From: Sulfurimonas sp.
GTDB lineage: Bacteria; Campylobacterota; Campylobacteria; Campylobacterales; Sulfurimonadaceae
NCBI RefSeq assembly: GCF_041583195.1
Contig: NZ_JBFHGL010000002.1
Location: forward strand, 186,001 to 250,000
Direction: 5' to 3'
DNA: 64,000 nt
Shown here: in pieces, positions 45,424 through 47,303 of the stretch
Layout: every line of letters begins with the position of its first letter
How positions within the stretch are numbered: position 1 is the stretch's first letter
The notes under the pieces: generated by a model
Told to the model about the DNA's origin: nothing
Seen by the model: only the letters and a program-made list of their open reading frames with translations
Database searches by the model: none
Translations under genes and position numbers: made by a program

Positions 45424-45449
45424 AATATAGGGTTATATAACCCTATATT
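45424..45449. terminator. Strong hairpin terminator, probably bidirectional
   Basis: AATATAGGGTT and AACCCTATATT form an 11-bp perfect stem with an ATAT loop, between the convergent ends of the methyltransferase and the HU-LysM gene, followed on the plus strand by AGTTTATTTTTT. Confidence 0.75.
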
Positions 45450-45452
45450 AGT

Positions 45453-46358
45453 TTATTTTTTAATATCACTACATCTTTTTATTATCGGATACTCAGCAGG
45501 TAATAATTGCTCTTTTAGATATATTTGAAAATCTTTACCCATAAAATGTGTACCTTCACATAAAATCCAAAACGATTTACCCATTTTGTCCATATCCATA
45601 TAGGTATTGTGTACATCCATATATGAGTTATATAAACTATTTGACTCTGTTTTATCAGGGACAACTATATTTGATCCTTTAAAAATCAGATCAGGGTTCA
45701 ATACCTTTGAATTATTTGCACTGTAAAGAAGTGGCCAATAACCTTTATCTCCATAAACCTTTAAACCAATAGCAGACAGTGTTTCATTTGCATTGACTGT
45801 GTAACTACCTGGATATAGTTTAGTTGCACTTGGAATAGTTGGAGGTATTTGTTTTAACTCTGTCACTACAGGTTGCTCAATAGTTTGTTCTTCTTGAACT
45901 TCTATAATTTGCGCTTTTTCAACCTCTTGAACAACTGGTTTAAAAACTTCCACCTCTTTAACTGACTTTACTGTAACTGTTTCATTTGTAGCGGTAGTAA
46001 AATAGATTAAAACCCCAACCAATAAAACTAATAATGCTAATAGTAGTTTTGGTAAAAAAGATTTTTCATCCTCTTCATTTATTGCATTTTTTAAAACTTT
46101 TGAACTTGCAAAATGTATATGATAGTGTGGAAGAATATCTAAAGGCTGTCCTGTTTGTGGATTTATTCCTCGCTTTGCTTTATACCAGCGAGGCTGAAAA
46201 CTTCCAAAGTTTCTTAGTTTAACCGAGTTTCCTTTTTTGCTTTCTATAACAATTGTTTCAAACATAGCAGAGAGATAATTTCTTACCGTTTCATTATCAT
46301 AGCCTGACTCAAGTACTATTTGTTCAACAAAATCATCATAATGTAGTTTTTCATTCAT
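45453..46358 (-). CDS. HU domain - membrane helix - LysM fusion protein
   Basis: 301 residues. Residues about 1-90 are an HU/IHF domain (VKLRNFGSFQPRWYKAKRG, then NPQTGQPL, then HIHFASSKVLKNAIN), which binds DNA. A single membrane helix follows (about 103-121, LLALLVLLVGVLIYF), then an acidic linker, and a LysM domain (about 185-235; GSYTVNANETLSAIGLKVYG, NPDLIFKGSNIVVP) that binds peptidoglycan, then a C-terminal tail with Cys. The N-terminus in the cytoplasm would place LysM in the periplasm, so the protein may link nucleoid and wall. It overlaps the HU gene upstream by four bases, so the two HU domains may pair. Confidence 0.85.
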   Translation of the reverse strand: MNEKLHYDDFVEQIVLESGYDNETVRNYLSAMFETIVIESKKGNSVKLRNFGSFQPRWYKAKRGINPQTGQPLDILPHYHIHFASSKVLKNAINEEDEKSFLPKLLLALLVLLVGVLIYFTTATNETVTVKSVKEVEVFKPVVQEVEKAQIIEVQEEQTIEQPVVTELKQIPPTIPSATKLYPGSYTVNANETLSAIGLKVYGDKGYWPLLYSANNSKVLNPDLIFKGSNIVVPDKTESNSLYNSYMDVHNTYMDMDKMGKSFWILCEGTHFMGKDFQIYLKEQLLPAEYPIIKRCSDIKK

Positions 46359-46642
46359 GACTGATACTTTTTCTGTAGTTGGTCTTTATACTCTGAACTA
46401 ATATGAAAAAAGATAGAGTATTTTTGAGGTGCCATCATGATGGTTTCTTTAACAATATTAAAAAAACGATGTTCCTTACTTTTTCTGACGTCAAAAGTGC
46501 CAAAATGTGGAATAGTTAAACTACTTTTTGTACTTAGATGATTTTCTATAACATTGATTGTAGAATCTAGTAAAACCTTTGATTCTGCGTGTGTAAGTGA
46601 AGATTTTTCAGCCGCAATATTGATCAACTCTTTCTTAGTCAT
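46355..46642 (-). CDS. HU-family DNA-binding protein
   Basis: 95 residues, typical HU length: helical dimerisation half (about 1-42) and beta-arm half (IPHFGTFDVRKSKEHRF, about 43-60). The arm lacks the NPxTG tip (NIVKETIMMAP instead), a departure from classic HU. Four-base overlap with the HU-LysM gene suggests that it forms a heterodimer with that membrane protein. It has its own -10 at 46675-46680. Confidence 0.85.
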   Translation of the reverse strand: MTKKELINIAAEKSSLTHAESKVLLDSTINVIENHLSTKSSLTIPHFGTFDVRKSKEHRFFNIVKETIMMAPQKYSIFFHISSEYKDQLQKKYQS

Positions 46643-46674: not shown

Positions 46675-46680
46675 ATTATA
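46675..46680 (-). promoter_or_regulatory. Likely -10 element (TATAAT) for the HU operon
   Basis: TATAAT on the minus strand, 32 bases upstream of the HU start. Confidence 0.5.
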
Positions 46681-46733
46681 TCACAACTGTCAATTGAATA
46701 TTTTATATAATTTGGAGTACCAAGCCAAAGAGC

Positions 46734-47303
46734 TTAGTGAAGTAGATTCTTTCTTACAAGTTTATATACTAAACTAAGATTCTTTTTTACACGAGCATAA
46801 TATGGAGCATTTGAGTAACCTCCGTTATAGCCGCTAACCATATTAAAGTATTTTTTTCTACTGTGTTTTAGTCTTACAAGCAAATGTGCTGCAATTTTTG
46901 TAGAAGTTTTTACATCGGTCAGTAGAAGCGATGCTAATTTTTTATCACTTAGTTTTAACAGGTGACTTAGAGACGGTGTCAGCTTTGCAATATGTTTTGC
47001 CGTTCTTAACTGGATCTGCATAGCACCAAGTGATGCTTTTGTAATGTCGGTACCCTTTTTTACATCACCAAGTATGTGAACACCGCCACTACTCTCAGTA
47101 AGACAAATGGCACTTAATGTGTTTTCGTATGTCTCACCTGTGTTATCTGAAATAGTTTTAGCTATATCTCTTACAGTTTGTAATGTTTCAAGCTGTTTTT
47201 GAGAAATGTCTGCAAATAAAAGTTTTCCAACGCTTAACAATAATATTAATCTTAACAAATATACCCTTTTTTTTCGAAAGCGGAATTTTAGTAAAAAAAT
47301 CAT
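46734..47303 (-). CDS. Lytic-transglycosylase-like (SLT) protein
   Basis: 189 residues with a hydrophobic N-terminal signal (VYLLRLILLLSVGKLLFA). The mature part has an SLT-like core: catalytic Glu in LTESSGG, then LGAMQIQL and a closing SGYNGGYSNAPYYARV. These enzymes cleave glycan strands to 1,6-anhydro ends. The protein is short, so it may be a minimal catalytic domain. It precedes the HU operon on the same strand, with a separate promoter between. Confidence 0.8.
   Translation of the reverse strand: MIFLLKFRFRKKRVYLLRLILLLSVGKLLFADISQKQLETLQTVRDIAKTISDNTGETYENTLSAICLTESSGGVHILGDVKKGTDITKASLGAMQIQLRTAKHIAKLTPSLSHLLKLSDKKLASLLLTDVKTSTKIAAHLLVRLKHSRKKYFNMVSGYNGGYSNAPYYARVKKNLSLVYKLVRKNLLH

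Follow-up and report, generated by a model that had tools for sequence, protein, structure and literature searches.

Does a pair of overlapping genes in Sulfurimonas encode an HU dimer that is fixed to the cell wall, and is DNA what such a dimer would hold there? The question is raised by a locus in a stretch of 64,000 nucleotides of Sulfurimonas sp. (contig NZ_JBFHGL010000002.1, positions 186,001 to 250,000), here called the window. An earlier note on this DNA proposed that an HU-LysM protein and its HU partner form a heterodimer that anchors DNA to the envelope. The parts of the pair are as follows.

46355..46642, minus strand: partner HU gene, 95 aa (ORF; PF00216, 61.1 bits)
45453..46358, minus strand: gene for HU domain, membrane helix and LysM domain, 301 aa (ORF; PF00216, 73.1 bits)
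46355..46358, minus strand: ATGA stop/start overlap, 4 bases (ORF coordinates)
46074..46358, minus strand: HU domain of the HU-LysM protein, residues 1-95, arm NPQTG (PF00216; single-chain IHF, 8.7e-19)
45990..46046, minus strand: single membrane helix, residues 105-123, N-in by charge (charge bias; model helix 102-123)
45651..45809, minus strand: LysM domain, residues 184-236, periplasmic by topology (family profile and model)
45456..45650, minus strand: C-terminal periplasmic helical region, residues 237-301 (model, pLDDT block means 70-93 except for the final residue)

Both open reading frames, their strand, their lengths and the 4-base overlap are as the earlier note had given them, and the HU domains that it had read in both proteins score above the PF00216 cut-off of 22.4 bits. 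At E <= 0.01 the same profile matches 23/23 HU-LysM proteins and 23/23 partners. Between the window and L038, the other member of its branch, differences are mainly synonymous in all three parts (dN/dS 0.10/1.16 in the partner, 0.10/1.26 in the HU domain and 0.14/0.79 in the LysM domain), and an artefact of ORF calling was ruled out by this bias together with conservation of the pair across loci. Nor is the pairing a matter of chance, since the 22 loci found in a contig scan through the HU-LysM protein alone all have an overlapping partner, as does G668. With the window these make 24 different intact pairs, all sharing the same gene order and the 4-base overlap, which reads ATGA in 21 of the 22 scan loci and GTGA in one. 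The scan used two short peptide patterns and was run once, so that more divergent pairs are missed, and all 22 of its loci come from MAG records. The ATGA overlap suggests that translation of the two genes is coupled.

The HU and LysM domains had been placed on opposite sides of the membrane, and prediction agrees for 23/23 members, each of which has one helix with more K/R before it than after it. Residues 105-123 are the sole membrane helix detected in the window protein, where the K/R counts in the 15 residues before and after (3 and 2) give an N-in orientation by a small margin. The LysM domain falls below the Pfam threshold (PF01476, 12.6 bits against a gathering cut-off of 20.9 in the window protein), and 9/23 members match at E <= 0.01. 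The assignment holds nevertheless, as two other approaches agree on it. A family profile of the region picks up LysM chains of known structure (Kbp 3.1e-8, phage tail LysM 4e-8, TsaP 3.2e-6), and residues 183-237 of the model superpose on the Kbp LysM with a Z of 7.1 and an rmsd of 1.0 Å over 55 residues, with the strand-helix-helix-strand elements of the fold at 184-187, 194-202, 205-214 and 230-233. The LysM of Kbp/YgaU is the closest solved one; Kbp has neither an HU domain nor the membrane helix, and its LysM comes after a BON domain.

AlphaFold confidence is low in the arm region of the HU domain of this protein, with residues 49-102 nearly all below 50, and its first helices alone are modelled well. 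Submitted entire, the HU-LysM protein gave no Foldseek match with an E-value below 0.001. The region that follows the LysM domain is shorter in the sister clade described below (about 47 residues) and longer in the window branch. Its C-terminal helices gave weak Foldseek rows to TPR-like hairpins, one of them the FimV TPR (E 3.4).

The search field that the earlier note had named for this architecture was Campylobacterota. Pairs do occur there, but the field was too narrow: carriers are also found in Gallionellaceae, Desulfobacterales and Zetaproteobacteria (one bin, short contig), with Sulfurimonadaceae, Helicobacteraceae, Gallionella and Sideroxydans among the taxa concerned. The Zetaproteobacteria placing (L080) could be a binning error, given a contig of 8.6 kb. 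With the window protein as query, 44 of 397 genomes of the phylum have some match; the match runs from HU through LysM in 3, the window genome included, and comprises HU alone, LysM alone or other parts in the remainder. An HU-LysM profile gives some match in 191 of 228 genomes of the family and the whole protein in 5, the pairs from this search being L065 (the same pair as L038), L066, L069 and L071. Profile searches also find 16/150 Gallionellaceae genomes (15 intact, 1 broken), 1/78 genomes of the class Zetaproteobacteria and 3/193 of the order of the Desulfobacterales locus (four more rows are HU alone). In the phylum to which the Sideroxydans genome belongs they find 2/398, neither of them new, and five more rows cover the HU part only. 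These searches scored the best candidates per genome only, and the sets of 397, 150, 193 and 398 genomes, like the 120 genus genomes used below, are samples of larger groups. Within each group the pair is rare. At another locus (L118:1030-1743) an HU domain (91.8 bits) is joined to a C-terminal region of ~145 residues that has no Pfam match at E <= 0.01 and is PilZ-like by eye.

Evidence that the partner is dedicated, as had been claimed, comes from two families. In the same 228 family genomes a partner profile finds 6, namely the 5 with the HU-LysM protein and G430, in which the contig ends inside the partner gene; in the same 150 Gallionellaceae genomes it finds 16, identical to the 16 of the HU-LysM profile. 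An HU-domain tree of 13 of the 23 pairs and 19 ordinary HU/IHF sets two groups apart from the ordinary proteins, one of partners, weakly supported (77/93), and one of HU-LysM domains (96/95). Because there are two HU lineages, one per gene, the pair probably arose once and its genes travelled together, by a single origin and shared descent. The tree of pairs separates the window branch (window and L038) from a 21-member sister branch that spans several phyla, within which sequences group by taxon with no intermixing. A broken copy is seen at L102 (G633), where the HU-LysM frame leaves the family after residue 69, a transposase-like sequence (by eye) starts at the break on the opposite strand, and the partner frame runs beyond its normal end.

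The partner is modelled with a mean pLDDT of 80.8 as an HU fold with beta arms, with a Foldseek match of 2.7e-7 to 1p71 (Anabaena HU-DNA). Its arm does lack the NPxTG tip, as had been noticed, and carries NIVKE instead, the tip proline being gone. This is less telling than it seemed, since the host's ordinary HU is also without NPxTG and the 21 sister-clade partners keep the proline. In the host genome (2.38 Mb, 22 contigs) PF00216 matches three proteins, the window pair and this one ordinary HU (L001, G000:C1:109725-109994), whose arm tip, KVPGT, is atypical. Ser21 and Thr28 are invariant in 23/23 partners, at positions that are nearly always hydrophobic in ordinary HU/IHF and in the HU domains of HU-LysM proteins; the two residues are a possible mark of a partner-specific interface.

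Does the HU pair bind DNA? The hydrophobic core is kept at 86-93% of 22 positions in the HU domains of the pair versus 98% in ordinary HU/IHF, which favours a folded, pairing HU domain. The surface is more altered. Fourteen positions that are mostly basic in 19 ordinary HU/IHF (0.77) are 22-36% basic across the four pair groups (0.29 in the HU-LysM proteins of the window branch and 0.36 in their partners, 0.22 and 0.29 in the other branch), and position 61, basic in 19/19 ordinary HU/IHF, is non-basic in both window proteins. Counted on the sequence, and not as electrostatics on a complex, the arm charge is +3 to +7 in ordinary HU/IHF (mean +4.5), +3 and +4 in the HU-LysM protein and partner of the window, and in the sister clade -1 to -5 with 0-1 K/R in the 21 HU-LysM proteins and 0 to +4 in their partners. 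The summed HU charge per pair, counted likewise, is +5 in the window, +6 in L038 and between -7 and +3 in the 21 pairs of the sister clade; that of ordinary monomers is +2 to +12.

Basic positions lost while the core is kept, with acidic arms in 21/23 HU-LysM proteins, would also fit an HU pair that serves as a protein-protein module, the LysM protein being a landmark, anchored in the wall, to which a cytoplasmic client is recruited after the logic of FimV/HubP. A protein-protein role has reportedly been proposed for the HU domains of eukaryotic CCDC81. Against such a module stand the basic arms of the window's branch, the tip proline present in 23/23 HU-LysM proteins (in many of which D replaces the preceding N) and the basic residues retained by the partners: position 86 is basic in either branch, and in the sister clade positions 74, 75 and 80 are so too. 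On its side, FimV of P. putida is reported to show LysM-dependent wall binding and polar placement (PMC12918733). We hold this reading to be possible, with the chances against it.

The central claim of the earlier note, that the HU pair anchors DNA to the envelope, stands in part. An anchored HU pair is supported by the opposite-side topology, the dedicated partner and the two co-descending HU types. For the DNA step speak the basic arms of the window pair; the loss of most basic positions and the acidic HU-LysM arms of the sister branch speak against it. The DNA-anchor reading survives best in the window pair, because both its arm charges and its summed HU charge are positive. As judged from residue composition, a DNA-to-wall tether is plausible in the window's branch and doubtful in the sister branch.

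Further information on the pair can be drawn from its surroundings, in which three features are of note.

46675..46683, minus strand: extended -10 promoter-like TGATATAAT before the partner gene (by eye)
45424..45449, no strand assigned: terminator-like palindrome just past the HU-LysM stop codon (1 found versus 0.8 expected in shuffles, no excess)
46734-47303: SLT transglycosylase gene, in 3/120 genus genomes, two of them with the pair

A promoter consensus scan did not list 46675..46683, and its sites were fewer than in shuffles (7 versus 13.9). The block from the extended -10 to the start codon is kept between the window and L065, and the sequence before it differs. To judge from the conserved -10 block, the terminator-like palindrome and the scarcity of shared flanks, the pair is probably transcribed as a unit of its own. 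A perfect 18-bp palindrome, possibly an operator, lies in L065 just downstream of the -10 (L065:3682-3699) and is absent from the window. Across 23 different loci, apart from the pair and a shadow ORF opposite the partner, no neighbour cluster occurs in more than 3 loci, the ORF picking being greedy so that genes may be missed. The widest cluster is a small ORF that precedes the pair at L076, L081 and L083, each remaining cluster is found in 2 loci, and no conserved neighbour at the 23 loci hints at chromosome segregation. The window's sole shared neighbour is the transglycosylase gene, shared with L065, and this gene is not part of the unit, being found in only three genus genomes of which one (G471) is without the pair. 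In G471, of the window's genus, neither pair gene is present and the transglycosylase gene is followed after 68 bases by an HD-GYP gene; in L065 (G508) the pair and the gene of a 318-aa protein lie between these same neighbours. The pair is a free-standing unit, present or absent at one site between relatives. The 318-aa protein ('C5', L065:2670-3626), encoded between the transglycosylase gene and the pair, is TOPRIM-like by eye and, at the limits used, matches nothing in Pfam, NCBIfam, PADLOC, PHROGs or PDB.

These surroundings also bear on a second alternative, in which the pair is a membrane-bound transcription regulator comparable in layout to ToxR and CadC, its LysM domain sensing the state of the wall and its HU pair bending promoter DNA. 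An N-in domain of DNA-binding type, one helix and a periplasmic domain would suit such a regulator, and the conserved leader before the pair could permit self-regulation. However, HU/IHF proteins have an architectural role and as a rule work together with other factors, no conserved target gene adjoins the pair at the 23 loci, and the basic positions are reduced. A regulator of this kind is unlikely.

Lateral transfer or extensive loss is suggested by the rarity of the pair in each group and by the presence of the two branches within one family. Rarity, both branches in one family and the empty site make the case for transfer; the sister-branch tree shows no intermixing. The pair may have spread laterally, with repeated loss as the alternative, and single short contigs may be binning errors. 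A phage or plasmid origin was rejected, as none of the 442 plasmid and 53 phage records that gave a match has a copy covering 80% of the HU-LysM protein; three viral-contig scans gave one plain 93-aa HU in one and nothing in the other two. A third alternative, that the pair is selfish or defensive mobile cargo, a nucleoid-associated factor acting on incoming DNA, would account for its patchy occurrence in distant groups, its presence or absence between the SLT and HD-GYP genes within one genus, and the broken copy in G633 with transposase-like sequence at the break. It is very improbable all the same: the HU-LysM protein has no PADLOC match and the partner only weak ones (16.0 and 14.4 bits), the searched collections of phage, plasmid and viral sequences contain no full-length copy, and sister-branch sequences cluster by taxon.

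How does the pair compare with known systems? By profile both proteins are members of the HU/IHF superfamily (PF00216), and a pairing of two types would resemble that of IHF alpha and beta. They differ from HU/IHF in that one subunit would be membrane- and wall-anchored and in that most basic contact positions are lost. Bacteroidetes proteins in which tandem HU domains (HU-CCDC81_bac) are followed by a membrane segment and SPOR were reportedly treated by Burroughs et al. in 2017; they likewise have two HU domains, one membrane helix and a glycan-binding periplasmic domain. In the present pair, by contrast, the HU domains are encoded by two separate overlapping genes, not in tandem, and the periplasmic domain is LysM, not SPOR. 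The window pair falls below the cut-off of 35 bits of PF18175 (HU-CCDC81_bac), the partner scoring 14.7 bits (14.2 in the genome scan), and at E <= 0.01 this profile matches 12/23 HU-LysM proteins (best 8.9e-4) and 11/23 partners (best 1.5e-5). Linking HU domains to a periplasmic domain that binds glycan is an idea already known from the Bacteroidetes HU-SPOR proteins, from which the present pair differs by its two genes and its LysM domain. A search of one literature library, judged by titles and abstract openings, found no paper describing an HU-membrane helix-LysM architecture.

In FimV/HubP proteins the LysM domain comes first. The HU-LysM protein falls outside that family, as its cytoplasmic part is an HU domain and its periplasmic part comes after. 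PMC12918733 describes FimV/HubP as a LysM membrane protein able to bind the wall and act as a landmark, HubP positioning the chromosome origin in some species. By the same account, FimV/HubP is like the HU-LysM protein in having a periplasmic LysM, one membrane helix and a cytoplasmic docking part, and unlike it in that this part, acidic in character, terminates in a FimV TPR domain and is not HU.

With an opposite-side topology, a dedicated partner and two co-descending HU types, a LysM-anchored HU pair is the best reading of the locus. The chances are about even that the pair is a self-contained two-gene system in which a wall-anchored HU/HU heterodimer fixes a cargo to the wall, chromosomal DNA being the likeliest cargo in the window's branch. 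Both genes, their domains, the predicted topology, the conservation of the pair, its dedicated co-occurrence and a tree that fits co-descent are in its favour, as are the retained hydrophobic core, the LysM fold and the basic arms of the window pair. Weighing against it are the lost basic positions, position 61 included, the acidic HU-LysM arms and low summed charge of the sister clade, the missing tip proline of the window partner, the lack at the 23 loci of a conserved neighbour linked to segregation, the low-confidence arm model and the narrow charge margin at the window's helix. In such a system the two proteins would be produced together through coupled translation, and the HU domain of the larger one would pair with the partner as an IHF-like heterodimer on the cytoplasmic side of the inner membrane. 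Through the single helix and a variable linker the LysM domain would reach the periplasm, where it would bind glycan strands; as it holds these strands, anything gripped by the HU pair would be fixed to the wall. Binding of chromosomal DNA would make the pair a nucleoid-to-wall tether or a positional landmark in the window's branch, and in the sister branch the cargo may be a protein, or the DNA contact weaker. A wider account, less likely than not, is that of a free-standing, probably laterally spread nucleoid-to-wall device with a dedicated HU heterodimer, one branch of which turned into a docking module for something other than DNA, a histone-type fold serving as a wall-anchored landmark.

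Direct links between chromosome and cell wall are seldom seen as a single defined protein pair. Since this pair is small, conserved and dedicated, and since a relative naturally lacks it at the same site, it should be cleanly addable or removable, and adding or removing it could show whether a wall-anchored HU alters nucleoid position, segregation or wall growth. The basic-arm and acidic-arm branches would provide a built-in test of what the HU pair carries.
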